A stretch of DNA of 34,094 nucleotides, from the IMG/VR virus record IMGVR_UViG_3300044715_000581, positions 1-34,094 of that record, one strand, 5' to 3'. Position 1 is the stretch's first letter, and each line of letters begins with the position of its first letter. Source of the stretch: a virus. Shown here one piece after another: positions 2,879 to 17,087 of the stretch. The notes beneath the pieces were generated by a model. The model ran no database searches, was not told the DNA's origin, and saw only the letters and a list, made by a program, of their open reading frames with translations. The position numbers and the translations under genes are program-made.

Positions 2879-3781
2879 TTAAATTCTTTTTGGTTCCATC
2901 GTAAACGGGTGATCCTCCTCGTATGAATCCCAAGCAATATTATCGACGTTAATTGTTTTAATTAATCGAGGATATAAATATTTATTTTTAATGTGGTGGT
3001 GCAATCGCCCTCCGTTTTTTATTTGTTTTTCTGCAAATATTGCCGACGGAAATTGAATAGGGCAAACTAACGATTTGCTCAATAACTTGCACTCGTTGTA
3101 AAGTTCCGTAAGTCCGCCCTTTGCCGTTGCCGATGCTGTTTGTTTTAATGCCAGACCGTCCCCAAGCGAACCAGTAAATAAACCGTTATTCATGATGTTT
3201 ACGAACTGGCTCGTATCGTTATCCTGAACGCCGCACTCGCCTCTATAAATAAACTTTGTTAATACGAAAGTCGTATTCATTACTTTGTTGCGCAAAAGTT
3301 TTTTATTAAAGCCTCCAATAAAATCGCCCGTTTGTGGAACTCCAAAAAGGCCGATTTTTCTTTTATACATGAAATCTTTTACGCCCTCGAAAACATTGTA
3401 AATATCATCGAACTCCGCAAGCCGTTGGTACTTTCCAAACTTTTTAATTTCGTAAGCGTTTGTATCGTCGTCTTGGACCATGTAGAATTCGATGCCGAGC
3501 TCCAGTGCCTTATCGTAAAACATATTTCTGGCCTGTCCCGCAGATCTTCTCGAAACGCTTGGACGGTGCACATAGTTATATCGCTCTCTCGATTCTTTCA
3601 TCGAAAAGATATGCAAGTTAAAACCTTTTTTTTCTGCGATTTCTGAATACTCAAAAAGATCATCGGCCTCGTCGTCAATAAACACGTGAATGTTTTTAGC
3701 ATTCCAGCCTATTTTTAAAAAGTATAAAACCGTTTTAAGGTTCTCGGGTCGATGGTACGACGGAATAAATATATCAATCAT
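2879..3781 (-). CDS. GT-A glycosyltransferase, putative DNA-base glycosyltransferase (TAGT/GREB1-like)
   Basis: This 300-residue enzyme has a GT-A glycosyltransferase layout. It starts with IDIFIPSYHRPENL, continues through IHVFIDDEADD and a conserved SAGQARNMFYDKA helix, and has the metal/nucleotide-sugar motif MVQDDDTN. The C-terminal half contains GGLTELYNECKLLSKSL and GGRLHHHIKNKYLYPRLIK. From family knowledge this pattern resembles the 'TET-associated glycosyltransferases' (GREB1 C-terminal domain class), proposed to add sugars to hydroxymethylated DNA bases in phages. I chose the ATG at 3781 because it overlaps the ParB-like stop as ATGATTGA, the same coupling seen at 17080-17087. An ATG at 3793 is the alternative. 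No base hydroxylase or hydroxymethylase is visible in the window, so the acceptor is unknown. Confidence 0.65.
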   Translation of the reverse strand: MIDIFIPSYHRPENLKTVLYFLKIGWNAKNIHVFIDDEADDLFEYSEIAEKKGFNLHIFSMKESRERYNYVHRPSVSRRSAGQARNMFYDKALELGIEFYMVQDDDTNAYEIKKFGKYQRLAEFDDIYNVFEGVKDFMYKRKIGLFGVPQTGDFIGGFNKKLLRNKVMNTTFVLTKFIYRGECGVQDNDTSQFVNIMNNGLFTGSLGDGLALKQTASATAKGGLTELYNECKLLSKSLVCPIQFPSAIFAEKQIKNGGRLHHHIKNKYLYPRLIKTINVDNIAWDSYEEDHPFTMEPKRI

Positions 3782-4502
3782 TCGACCATTCATTAATTAA
3801 TTGATGCACGCGCAAAAGATCGTCCTCGATGAATCCATTAATACCGGAATCACAAAGCACTAATCGCAATCTTTCGATCACATTTTTTTCGTTTTCGTCA
3901 GCATTGAAATAATAATAGTTTGCAACGTTTTCAAAATCAATTTTAATAAATCGATATGCAAAAAAAGTAAGTACCGATTTTTGATCTTCAGTTAATTCAG
4001 CGTTATTTATTATTTCAATTTTTTTATTAAATTTTTCAAGATCCAAACAATCGCTCAATTTAATATTTGGAACCTCAACGGGGTTAAAATAAATATCTTC
4101 AAATTTTAATTCGCTCAGTTTTTCAGTTTCCGAGATTTCTGGAACGTCAAGGCCCCACTCCTCGAGCTTGTCGGGGTTCCAATTAATCGCAAGATCTTGC
4201 CAGTCCCACTCGCCGAACCCTACGTTGTCCTTAATTATAAACTCCCGTTGCTGATCTTCCGTTAAATCGCTCGCCATTATAACGGGAATTTCTTTTAGTT
4301 TGGCCTCAATGCACGCTTTTAAACGCATATTCCCTCCGAGTACTACATTATCCTCGTTAATAACAATTGGCCGTATTTTAAGCATTTCGGGAAATTGCTT
4401 AATTGAATTAACCAGCTTAAGAAATTTATCGTCCTTAATTGTTCGAGGGTTACTGGGATTCGGTTTAATATCCGAAATTTTATAAAGTTTTGTTTCGATC
4501 AT
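3774..4502 (-). CDS. ParB/Srx-fold protein with extra C-terminal domain
   Basis: This is a 242-residue protein. Residues about 1-110 are a ParB/sulfiredoxin-like domain, with DIKPNPSNPRTIKDDKF, IRPIVINEDNVVLGGNMR and a following LTEDQQREFIIKDN. Then comes the WDWQDLAINWNPDKLEEWGL segment common in phage ParB-like proteins next to DNA-modifying enzymes. The C-terminal about 100 residues (ELTEDQKSVLTFFAYRFIKI onward) form a separate helical domain, where other phages often have a methyltransferase. It is coupled to the glycosyltransferase, so a shared role in modifying or marking DNA before packaging is likely. A TAACTTTG box ends 4 bases before the ATG, so the mRNA may be nearly leaderless. 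Confidence 0.75.
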   Translation of the reverse strand: MIETKLYKISDIKPNPSNPRTIKDDKFLKLVNSIKQFPEMLKIRPIVINEDNVVLGGNMRLKACIEAKLKEIPVIMASDLTEDQQREFIIKDNVGFGEWDWQDLAINWNPDKLEEWGLDVPEISETEKLSELKFEDIYFNPVEVPNIKLSDCLDLEKFNKKIEIINNAELTEDQKSVLTFFAYRFIKIDFENVANYYYFNADENEKNVIERLRLVLCDSGINGFIEDDLLRVHQLINEWSND

Positions 4503-13663: not shown

Positions 13664-14149
13664 TTAAATTAAGCCGTTAGCTGCAAATGAAGTAAAGCCG
13701 TTGTCTTGAGTTAATATTAAGTGATCCAATAGCGATATATTAAATAACTTTAAACCGCTTTTAATTTCCTTTGTAATTTCAATATCGGCATCGCTTGGCT
13801 TTATATTTCCAGACGGGTGATTGTGGCATAAAACAACCGCTTGAGCATTCGATAAAATGGCGAGCCTCGCAATATATTGCTTATCGACAACAACTTGCGT
13901 AGTGGCGCCCTCACCGCAGTTAACTATTCCCAGAACTTGGTTCGAACGAGTTAATAATACTACGGAAAATATTTCCCGCTGCTCGTACATTTCGGTATTT
14001 AAATACCATTGATTCATTAAATTAAAAATATCAATTTCATTTTTTATTAATGCTCGATCTTTTGCTTTCACTTTCGTAGTGTACTTTGCAGAAACATCGC
14101 AAATGTGCGAAATGTCTTTTAACAATTGATTTGTTTGAGGTTTTGACAT
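13664..14149 (-). CDS. radC: RadC-like JAB-domain protein
   Basis: This 161-residue protein carries the RadC/JAMM metal site: CHNHPSGNIKPSDADI gives H109, H111, S119 and D122, with an upstream glutamate in EQREIF (E59). RadC proteins are common on mobile elements and phages, though their enzymatic role is not settled. I chose the ATG at 14149; a TTG at 14158 is the only alternative. The upstream spacer has a hairpin and an AACCCCTCAAA motif. Confidence 0.88.
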   Translation of the reverse strand: MSKPQTNQLLKDISHICDVSAKYTTKVKAKDRALIKNEIDIFNLMNQWYLNTEMYEQREIFSVVLLTRSNQVLGIVNCGEGATTQVVVDKQYIARLAILSNAQAVVLCHNHPSGNIKPSDADIEITKEIKSGLKLFNISLLDHLILTQDNGFTSFAANGLI

Positions 14150-14170
14150 AACAAGCAATTTTAAAATTTT

Positions 14171-14201
14171 TGAGGGGTTAAAAGGGCGGAATTAACCGCC
14201 C
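14171..14201 (-). promoter_or_regulatory. Intergenic hairpin plus AACCCCTCAAA motif (copy before radC)
   Basis: On the minus strand GGGCGG-TTAATT-CCGCCC (14201-14184) is followed by TTTTAACCCCTCAAA. It resembles a short intrinsic terminator. Its stem is identical to that at 11181-11198, and both are followed by TTTTAACCCC. Confidence 0.5.
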
Positions 14202-14208
14202 GTTATTT

Positions 14209-14547
14209 TTAGTTTTTAACTTGGTAAGTTTTATCGAATGCTCCGATTGTGATCCAAACATAATGCGACGGCTGGGATCCATAGTCGCACGTTTCCCTCC
14301 ACGTAGTTCCTTTGCTTGCAATATCATAAACCTTTGAAAGTAACGCAGCCTGATCGCCTGAATAGTGCTCGTTAATGTAATACTCGTTTACTTGCTTGTA
14401 ATCGATCCCAAAATCTACATTTGAAGCTAAAACCGCAATTCGAACGCCTGAATAATGCTCGCGCTTAATTGAAAATTTTGCATTCGGGAACTGGTTTTTT
14501 AACTCCGTTCTAATTTCTTTGACTTGTTCGGTTGAAATGTACGCCAT
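14209..14547 (-). CDS. LPD29-like small protein, 112 aa
   Basis: The N-terminus YISTEQVKEIRTELKNQFPN followed by KFSIKREHYSGVRIAVL is the typical form of the LPD29 domain, a small domain found in phage and mobile-element polyvalent proteins. The C-terminus continues with SHYVWITIGAF. Function is unknown. The ATG at 14547 follows ACCCCTTAAAATTTAAAGCA. Confidence 0.75.
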   Translation of the reverse strand: MAYISTEQVKEIRTELKNQFPNAKFSIKREHYSGVRIAVLASNVDFGIDYKQVNEYYINEHYSGDQAALLSKVYDIASKGTTWRETCDYGSQPSHYVWITIGAFDKTYQVKN

Positions 14548-14896: not shown

Positions 14897-15568
14897 TTAT
14901 TTTGCCGTTGCCAGTCCAAAACCGATCAAGGCCCCGATTCCAATTTTGAACCCTGTCGTTTGGAACCATTTTTTACGGTCCTTTATATATATATTCGACA
15001 TTCCTTGAATCTGGATATTCGGATTATCGATATGCAGCCTAACAACCTTATCGGATTTTCGAATTAATCTATTAATAAGGCCGTGTCGTGCGGTATCGCC
15101 AACCGAATAGGTAAATTGCCCGTTGCTAACAAGCGAATCGATTAGAAGCGTTCCTGTGGACAAAATTTGCCCATTAATAGAAAACCATCGTTCGCCCTTT
15201 GAAAACGAAACAGGAACGCGCAAATAATTAACCGAATCGATTTGCTCAATTTCTGCAATCGGGATCTCCGTTTTAATAATATACCGAGTTTTAAACTGGA
15301 TCACCTCGACAGGCTTTTTTATTTTCATTATTCGAAGTGCGAAAATTTCCTGTTCGTTTTTTTGGATCACCTCGCTGGCAATTTTAATATTTATTTTTTG
15401 CGAATAAATTAAACTAGAATCGGCCAGCCTTGAAACCTTGAAACTTTTAATTTCGGAATCCTGTTTTTTTAGTTCCGTTATATATTCCCGGTTTAAATCA
15501 CAGCTTCGAAATAAAAGTATAATTAAAACGATGCAAGCGATCAAAATAAAATTTATTCCTTTATACAT
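14897..15568 (-). CDS. N-terminally anchored coiled-coil membrane protein (spanin-like position), 223 aa
   Basis: Residues 5-22 (INFILIACIVLIILLF) form a transmembrane anchor, followed by a charged helical stretch (about 25-90). A beta-rich domain comes next (RYIIKTEIPIAEIEQ, RWFSINGQIL, VVRLHIDN), then a glycine-rich hydrophobic end (GFKIGIGALIGFGLATAK). Bacteroidota phages and prophages often carry such a protein next to the endolysin. An inner-membrane spanin-like lysis role is possible, but I see no lipoprotein partner. It is the last gene of the long late operon. Confidence 0.55.
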   Translation of the reverse strand: MYKGINFILIACIVLIILLFRSCDLNREYITELKKQDSEIKSFKVSRLADSSLIYSQKINIKIASEVIQKNEQEIFALRIMKIKKPVEVIQFKTRYIIKTEIPIAEIEQIDSVNYLRVPVSFSKGERWFSINGQILSTGTLLIDSLVSNGQFTYSVGDTARHGLINRLIRKSDKVVRLHIDNPNIQIQGMSNIYIKDRKKWFQTTGFKIGIGALIGFGLATAK

Positions 15569-15758
15569 TTGCTTGCGTTATTAACAATAATTGAATCCAG
15601 AACTTTGCGAAATCGTTTTTATTCCGGAGGTTATTTTCCAGAACATTTTTCGCAAAACTTAACGGCATTTCCTTTTCGAGAACATAGTTTGAAATTACAA
15701 TAATTAATCGTTCGTCAGCTTCCGCATCCGTTTTCGGTAGAAATGTTTCCGTATTCAT
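15561..15758 (-). CDS. Small hypothetical protein, 65 aa
   Basis: This is a helical soluble protein (TDAEADERLIIVISNYVLE, then FAKFWIQLLLITQANV) with no recognised family. It overlaps the next gene by 8 bases and sits between the histidine-box protein and the membrane protein. Confidence 0.55.
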   Translation of the reverse strand: MNTETFLPKTDAEADERLIIVISNYVLEKEMPLSFAKNVLENNLRNKNDFAKFWIQLLLITQANV

Positions 15759-15762
15759 TTTA

Positions 15763-16332
15763 TCAAATTTGCCTCGTTGCTTTTTTTAATAAATTATGAA
15801 TCGATTTATCTAATTGACCAACCGATAAATCGACCATTTTAAGGAGCTTAATATTTTCCTCGTCAGTTTGAGAAAAATCATTTTCTATTAACATTTTAAC
15901 CAGTCCGGCAATACTCGTCAAGGGCTGTCGTAGCTCGTGCGAAAGCATAAATCGAAAGTCCTCTAAAAGTTGTTTTTGTTTTTCGTGCTCGTGTGAGGTT
16001 ATCGAAGTAACGTCAGTAATCGGGAGCCCTACGAAATGCAGCGAATTAAGTATAAAATAAATATTCCAAAGGTTCCACCGCATCGACCCGTTTTTTTGTT
16101 TCGTTTTTGCATAAAATCGAATCGGAAGTGGGGCCCTTTCTTTGGATCTATTAACTGAATCCGAAAACTCATTGAAATCGGAATCGTCCGATATTATTTC
16201 AGAAACATTTTTCGGCTTAATGTGGCTCGTATATTCTTTGAATAAATCGTTGCTCCCAATAATAACCCCGTTTTCATCGGTTACTAAATAAAATAAATCA
16301 ATTGAATTCGTCAAAATATACCTTGTCGACAT
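15763..16332 (-). CDS. PAS plus HisKA phosphoacceptor protein lacking the kinase ATPase domain
   Basis: Residues about 8-110 look like a PAS sensor fold (FYLVTDENGVIIGSNDLF, and a PAC-like NGSMRWNLWNIYFIL). A linker helix (EHEKQKQLLEDFRFML) leads into a canonical histidine kinase H-box, SHELRQPLTSIAGLVKML, with phosphoacceptor H132. The second dimerisation helix ends at SVGQLDKSIHNLLKKA. The protein stops there (189 residues), exactly where the HATPase catalytic domain would begin. No ATP-binding N, G1 or G2 box exists downstream in any frame that I can see. It could accept or divert phosphate from host regulators, or form inactive heterodimers with a host kinase. It lies in the lysis and membrane cluster. 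Confidence 0.75.
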   Translation of the reverse strand: MSTRYILTNSIDLFYLVTDENGVIIGSNDLFKEYTSHIKPKNVSEIISDDSDFNEFSDSVNRSKERAPLPIRFYAKTKQKNGSMRWNLWNIYFILNSLHFVGLPITDVTSITSHEHEKQKQLLEDFRFMLSHELRQPLTSIAGLVKMLIENDFSQTDEENIKLLKMVDLSVGQLDKSIHNLLKKATRQI

Positions 16333-16378: not shown

Positions 16379-16888
16379 TTACGATTTTAATGCAAACTTA
16401 ATTTTTGAAACCATCGCAAACCAGTCGTTAAAAGAACGGATTAAATAAACCGTACTGCAAACAAGCATAAACGTAAAGATAAACCCGCAAGCATCGCCAT
16501 TTAAATCGTTTTGCTGCGTTCTTATTTCCTTTTTGGGATGCAATGCAATTAATTCATTTGCACTTCGTGTATCGCCTTGTTTCAGGTATTTCAAATCGTT
16601 TAATTTTAAAGTATCGCTGAACCGAATTTTAATAACTGGATAAACGAAGTTATAATTAACCGCAGTCGTTTCTTTTTCAGTAAAAAAGATCTGGCCGCTT
16701 TCCGAAACAAAGTAGTTATTTTTTAAATCAAAATTTTCATTTAAATAATCGGTTTGCATTTCCGTAGTTTTCCCGTATTTACTTATTACTTCAATATGTT
16801 TGTAGTTGTGTATCTTGCAAATCTCACCTATTACGCAAACGGGATCCAGCGTGTAAGTAATTAACGTATCTATATTACTATTAATCAT
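16379..16888 (-). CDS. Hypothetical protein with C-terminal membrane helix, 169 aa
   Basis: The first about 130 residues are soluble and beta-rich with no recognised motif (YTLDPVCVIGEICKIHNY near the start). Residues about 138-157 (GFIFTFMLVCSTVYLI) form one membrane segment followed by a short basic end. This is a tail-anchored design. It overlaps the two-helix membrane protein gene by 8 bases, so it is probably co-translated with it. Confidence 0.6.
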   Translation of the reverse strand: MINSNIDTLITYTLDPVCVIGEICKIHNYKHIEVISKYGKTTEMQTDYLNENFDLKNNYFVSESGQIFFTEKETTAVNYNFVYPVIKIRFSDTLKLNDLKYLKQGDTRSANELIALHPKKEIRTQQNDLNGDACGFIFTFMLVCSTVYLIRSFNDWFAMVSKIKFALKS

Positions 16889-17087
16889 TTTTTTCGCTCC
16901 TTTCTTTTGGCTTCCAAACCCATTTTAACGTGATCACAGCACCGATAATGTATGCGAATGTTTCTTTGTCTATTTGTTTTAAAAAGAATAACCAGAAACC
17001 CGTAATAATTGCCATCGAACCGACACAATAATTCCAGTATTCAAAAATAACATTTAAAATAGTTTTTATTTTTCTCGGCTCAATCAT
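16881..17087 (-). CDS. Small two-helix membrane protein, holin candidate, 68 aa
   Basis: Two hydrophobic segments, about 20-36 (NYCVGSMAIITGFWLFF) and 44-58 (AYIIGAVITLKWVW), are joined by a short charged loop. A basic N-terminus and a charged C-terminus flank them. The size, topology and position two genes from the endolysin make it the best holin candidate here. Its ATG overlaps the upstream stop as ATGATTGA. Confidence 0.55.
   Translation of the reverse strand: MIEPRKIKTILNVIFEYWNYCVGSMAIITGFWLFFLKQIDKETFAYIIGAVITLKWVWKPKERSEKND

Follow-up and report, generated by a model that had tools for sequence, protein, structure and literature searches.

On the minus strand of the window, by which we mean the whole stretch of DNA analyzed (a virus record from IMG/VR, 34,094 bases long), a gene for a short protein that we call PAS-DHp lies within the lysis region (Table 1). 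The gene order is endolysin, holin-like protein, C-terminal-TM protein, PAS-DHp, a protein of ~65 residues and a membrane-anchored protein, the last three making up a conserved trio with PAS-DHp at its head. In addition to the endolysin, the window encodes a terminase, a portal, a head protease, a DnaB helicase and RecE/RecT-like genes. Glucosyltransferase-like (phrog_842) and ParB/DNA-methyltransferase-like genes adjoin the terminase at 2879–4502, a possible sign of DNA modification, and a RadC-like JAB protein and an LPD29-domain protein are encoded downstream of the PAS-DHp trio at 13664–14547. Nearly all cultured phages with a related portal infect Bacteroidota, which makes a member of that phylum the probable host.

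Table 1. Features of the lysis region around the PAS-DHp gene (positions in the window).
Feature	Position	Strand	Basis
Endolysin (phage lysozyme)	17910..18359	(-)	PF00959, E=1.7e-36
Small hydrophobic protein, holin-like	16881..17087	(-)	Size, TM content in relatives, position
Protein with C-terminal TM segment, immediately upstream of PAS-DHp	16379..16888	(-)	
TAnnTTTG element (TAAGTTTG), ~60 nt upstream of PAS-DHp ATG	16393..16400	(-)	Consensus match only
PAS-DHp protein, 189 aa, no CA/ATPase domain	15763..16332	(-)	ORF with ATG start; Pfam; AlphaFold model
PAS domain, residues 9–107	16012..16308	(-)	AlphaFold model and structural match, Z 13–14; Pfam PAS match not significant
DHp helix alpha-1 carrying the H-box, residues 113–150	15883..15996	(-)	Pfam and AlphaFold model
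His132 codon CAC (putative phosphoacceptor), then Glu133; Gln136 = His+4	15937..15939	(-)	Conservation in ~180 distinct relatives
DHp helix alpha-2, residues 157–188, the protein's end	15769..15864	(-)	AlphaFold model
Small helical protein, 65 aa, coupled partner gene	15561..15758	(-)	ATGA overlap in relatives; ~4 nt gap in window
Membrane-anchored protein, 223 aa, N-terminal TM, spanin-like by position only	14897..15568	(-)	ORF; no significant family match

Pfam HisKA (PF00512) matches residues 129–182 of the window protein with E=2.6e-9 and 37.4 bits against a curated cut-off of 26.9, which is also exceeded at loci L224, L210 and L346. The H-box SHELRQPLTSI is present with its histidine at residue 132, and the stop falls 57 residues past it. 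No HATPase domain was matched by Pfam at E≤1 in this protein, which stops at residue 189; nor was HPt (PF01627) at the same threshold, HisKA being matched instead, and no PAS match was significant. An AlphaFold model built from 45 family members (mean pLDDT 74.9, pTM 0.53) showed a mixed alpha/beta domain followed by two long helices, with moderate confidence in the hairpin (pLDDT mostly 57–76). Residues 9–107 of the model matched PAS domains structurally, and LOV/PAS histidine kinases took the top Foldseek ranks. According to the model, the open reading frame is a PAS domain followed by a HisKA DHp hairpin carrying His132. The frame 3′ of the gene belongs to a further conserved gene rather than to the remains of a CA domain. 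The intact H-box, both dimerization helices, the PAS domain and the missing CA domain, all claimed in the preliminary description, are borne out, PAS by predicted structure and not by Pfam.

Successive scans of viral contigs for relatives of PAS-DHp counted 45, 222, 270 and finally 415 candidate stretches. The first large collection comprised 271 loci, which reduce to 183 distinct proteins among the matches listed. Complete copies are almost all 186–194 residues long, the longer ones resulting from in-frame upstream starts, and in all 92 further distinct relatives with the motif SHE[LI]R[QH]P the stop lies 57 or 58 codons after the histidine. Across ~180 distinct relatives, His132 and Glu133 are conserved in 100% and Gln136 in 99%. 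Constraint acts on the protein, because codons at conserved sites vary freely (His132 is encoded by CAC in 105 relatives and CAT in 77). Among 45 representatives with a mean pairwise identity of 62%, 10 of 19 H-box positions are invariant versus 34 of 170 elsewhere (Fisher p=0.003, a guide value as positions are not independent). At residue 129, three before His132, threonine replaces methionine in about a quarter of the distinct relatives (L107–L161). Compared with close relatives, dN/dS is 0.03–0.06 at dS of ~1.4 or more, these being the comparisons in which dS could be estimated; for more distant relatives dS is saturated. PAS-DHp is under strong purifying selection. Retention of the histidine in relatives had been set as a condition beforehand, and it was never lost, including in the divergent L412 (L412:2714-3283), which is 43% identical, also 189 residues long and has the motif changed from SHELRQP to EHELGQP with His, Glu, Gln and Pro kept. 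These results uphold the earlier view of a cleanly ending frame and of a designed product as opposed to decay. One locus (L179:5051-5579) carries the gene split in two frames of 101 and 60 residues, which may be a true defect or an artifact of assembly.

The surroundings of the gene are conserved as well, and its place among lysis genes, remarked on in the preliminary description, recurs across loci. An endolysin gene was close by in 81 of 81 first-round loci, and the small gene adjoined PAS-DHp in 80 of them; most loci missed by a simple motif filter carry the small gene too. The PAS-DHp stop and the small-gene start overlap as ATGA at 228 of 251 loci. In the divergent lineage L352 the small gene is missing and PAS-DHp is coupled directly to the membrane-protein gene. 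In L412, two extra genes, one of which we take to resemble an M15-type peptidase, sit between the lysis genes and PAS-DHp, and the trio is still together. Where the contig extends far enough, loci retrieved through the membrane protein, and not through PAS-DHp itself, also have the PAS-DHp gene. Within the sampled range PAS-DHp is apparently a core gene of this phage lineage, where the scans return nearest relatives and could have missed a more distant lineage that lacks it. As expected for vertical inheritance, pairwise distances for PAS-DHp correlate at r=0.92 with those for the membrane protein and at r=0.84 with those for the endolysin, the pairs not being independent.

The ~65-residue protein is predicted to form three helices, and R17, L18, E28, M31 and P32 are invariant in it. 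Its family had no meaningful Pfam match and a fold search gave just weak, unrelated matches; an Sda-like, anti-kinase identity was considered and found no support, its profile matching no Sda entry in the PDB. No family match was found for the holin-like protein, nor a significant one for the membrane-anchored protein of the window. That the latter is a true spanin gained little support, with one weak Rz-like match among 16 members (E=0.062), and the label stays a positional one. The link between PAS-DHp and lysis timing is positional only.

The sequence upstream of the gene may hold a promoter. An element TAnnTTTG, similar to the −7 promoter motif of Bacteroidota, precedes the start codon by 12 nt in roughly half of the 187 distinct upstream regions compared among relatives. 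Counted at any place within 150 nt upstream, it is present in 60% of regions versus 10% in shuffles; over the entire window it shows no enrichment. This resemblance is suggestive only.

PAS-DHp had no relatives among cultured phages, where a second query gave just weak matches at E≤1, and its carriers are probably a large, uncultured group of Bacteroidota viruses. A temperate lifestyle found no support in whole-record searches with working positive controls, as a tyrosine integrase was present in 0 of 36 records. Searches of the same kind, again with working positive controls, addressed a phage-encoded partner: HATPase_c (PF02518) was found in 0 of 26 whole records, HATPase_c_2 (PF13581) in 0 of 36 and a receiver domain in 0 of 26, some of which may be incomplete. 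A phage-encoded partner from these families is therefore unlikely, in line with the earlier expectation that the phage carries no separate CA-domain gene, and any phosphate partner must be the host's. PAS-DHp is accordingly not a histidine kinase in the enzymatic sense, with no CA domain in the same protein and none found among the other genes of the records searched.

Proteins of related architecture occur in cells. The closest plasmid-borne relative, Emticicia WP_015031188.1, ends right after the DHp and is ~35% identical to the window protein over half its length; a Bernardetia plasmid protein (WP_338815577.1) likewise ends at the DHp. Like PAS-DHp, both have PAS or GAF-PAS domains and then a DHp that ends the protein, but they are 445–480 residues long with several sensor domains and have Ala or Arg at His+4. 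A Persicobacter plasmid protein (L351:1994-3100) has a receiver-DHp-receiver arrangement without CA, possibly a one-protein phosphorelay segment. No Pfam match to an ATPase domain was found in any of these three proteins. In two of these three CA-less cellular proteins the residue after the histidine is not acidic, so the architecture by itself does not demand an acidic residue there. A Paracoccus plasmid match was discarded as a CA-less relative because, as in ordinary PAS kinases, its sequence goes on beyond the DHp. GTDB genomes gave no relatives to short exact patterns, which do not establish absence. The same architecture in cells, the coupled small gene and the Gln at His+4 had all gone unmentioned in the preliminary description.

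PAS/GAF-HisKA proteins that keep the His but have no HATPase have been described from archaea, with possible roles as phosphoacceptors or phosphatases (Galperin 2018, PMC5847659). Such CA-less proteins are mostly misannotated as kinases and their function is conjectured (PMC5847659); P2CS classes HisKA-only proteins as phosphotransfer proteins (PMC2716373). PAS-DHp shares with this group the N-terminal PAS/GAF sensor (a PAS seen in the predicted structure, not by Pfam) and the C-terminal HisKA with its conserved His and no ATPase domain. The described proteins are cellular, mainly archaeal in the cited census, whereas PAS-DHp is a minimal, 189-residue phage form beside lysis genes. The architecture is thus known in cells; in the literature searched, neither a HisKA-only protein of a phage nor the minimal form as a conserved lysis-linked phage gene turned up. 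PAS-HisKA kinases of the PhoR/PnpS/WalK type are collinear with PAS-DHp, as judged from a match to TIGR02966 PhoR that at E=1.4e-9 is far below that model's cut-off and that stops before the CA domain of these kinases. The phosphotransfer proteins Spo0B and ChpT, which shuttle phosphate between receiver domains and to which PAS-DHp had been compared, also present a DHp hairpin with a phosphorylatable His and no autokinase activity. Spo0B has a Bergerat-like C-terminal domain. ChpT keeps such a domain, which is ATPase-like, after its DHp (PMC3433190). PAS-DHp instead ends at the DHp and has a PAS domain, and the comparison therefore holds for function only and not for domains.

How might such a protein work? 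We favor, at what we judge to be an even chance, a phosphohistidine acceptor that stands alone, is gated by its PAS domain and depends on a host kinase or receiver, most likely as a sink or relay node. The model builds on the domains, the failure to find phage CA or receiver genes, the invariant His and Glu, purifying selection and the conserved lysis-region trio. PAS-DHp presumably dimerizes through both PAS and DHp. Having no ATP-binding domain, it could not phosphorylate itself, and His132 would take phosphoryl groups from a host protein, either a phosphorylated receiver domain or the CA domain of a host kinase acting in trans. With neither a kinase nor a receiver found in the phage, donor and acceptor of the phosphate would both be host proteins. 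PAS-DHp would draw off phosphate or hand it on, and as such a sink or relay node it would alter what a host His-Asp pathway puts out, probably at a late stage of infection; the coupled ~65-residue helical protein would be its likely partner. Dimerization, phosphate acceptance, the host partner, the way in which phosphate moves and any influence on lysis are all inferred. The conservation is so strict that, judging from sequence, the protein probably plugs into the phosphate-signaling network of the host.

The residues around His132 bear on its chemistry. In HisKA kinases, the acidic residue after the His is needed for the kinase reaction and Thr or Asn at His+4 for phosphatase activity; in one of them, CrdS, the Glu beside the His is kinase-specific and N375Q abolished phosphatase activity (PMC3510030). 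The PAS-DHp family has Gln at His+4 in 99%, in place of Thr or Asn. By analogy, Glu at +1 and Gln at +4 suggest that the histidine has been kept competent to accept phosphate, and they speak against a phosphatase. Some considerations weigh against the acceptor model: H-box conservation could reflect binding rather than chemistry, the acidic residue is missing from two CA-less cellular proteins as noted above, and host transcriptional output may matter little by late infection.

The acceptor reading is favored over two alternatives, each of which we consider unlikely. The stronger is a dominant-negative decoy, in which the DHp would form mixed dimers with a host histidine kinase or titrate its response regulator, and so shut the pathway without phosphate chemistry. 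An intact dimerization hairpin with no catalytic domain would suit this role, and a precedent exists in PIT4 of Pseudomonas phage LSL4, which binds the histidine kinases FleS, PilS and PA2882 (PMC10714779). PIT4 is reported to be a phage protein that targets histidine kinases of the host, while PAS-DHp is itself kinase-derived, and the two are compared here by description only. A pure decoy, however, needs no invariant His and Glu, and both stay even where their H-box neighbors have changed, as in L412; the retained PAS sensor also suggests a regulated activity.

Close behind the decoy comes a phage-internal lysis regulator, in which PAS-DHp, the small protein and the membrane-anchored protein would sense cell state and time lysis in one complex, with little or no use of host two-component systems. 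At the examined loci with enough upstream sequence, the PAS-DHp gene sits shortly before that of the membrane protein, the trio is unbroken in L412 despite the genes inserted upstream, PAS-DHp distances track those of the membrane protein and endolysin, and an ATGA overlap is typical of subunits of one complex. Synteny, though, holds for unrelated neighbors too in compact phage genomes, and lineage L352 has no small gene between the other two. Moreover, no receiver is present to accept phosphate from the His, and a structural role leaves the invariant His-Glu pair unexplained. A lysis-gating phosphorelay encoded by the phage is improbable in our estimation: the PAS would read cell state, His132 would exchange phosphate with a host receiver, and the phosphorylation state would be relayed via the small protein to the membrane-anchored protein and the holin region, such that host signaling sets the time of lysis.

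We give little credence to a phosphatase, in which the DHp would dephosphorylate a host response regulator, as suggested for archaeal HisKA-only proteins of the same architecture (PMC5847659), given that Gln stands where HisKA phosphatase activity needs Thr or Asn, that the Asn-to-Gln change abolished it in CrdS, and that Glu133 is invariant though not needed for phosphatase activity in that study (PMC3510030). Decay of a captured host kinase, for which the missing CA domain might speak, is ruled out for practical purposes by a length and stop conserved in hundreds of contigs, by the low dN/dS, and by the failure to find a CA remnant downstream or elsewhere.

As a minimal, strictly conserved and apparently core gene of an abundant phage lineage, PAS-DHp suggests a selected function for the CA-less PAS-HisKA architecture, and it offers a small model protein with which this architecture can be tested. 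Should PAS-DHp exchange phosphate with receivers of the host, then host two-component signaling would have a phage component built into it, one that is physically linked to the lysis genes.
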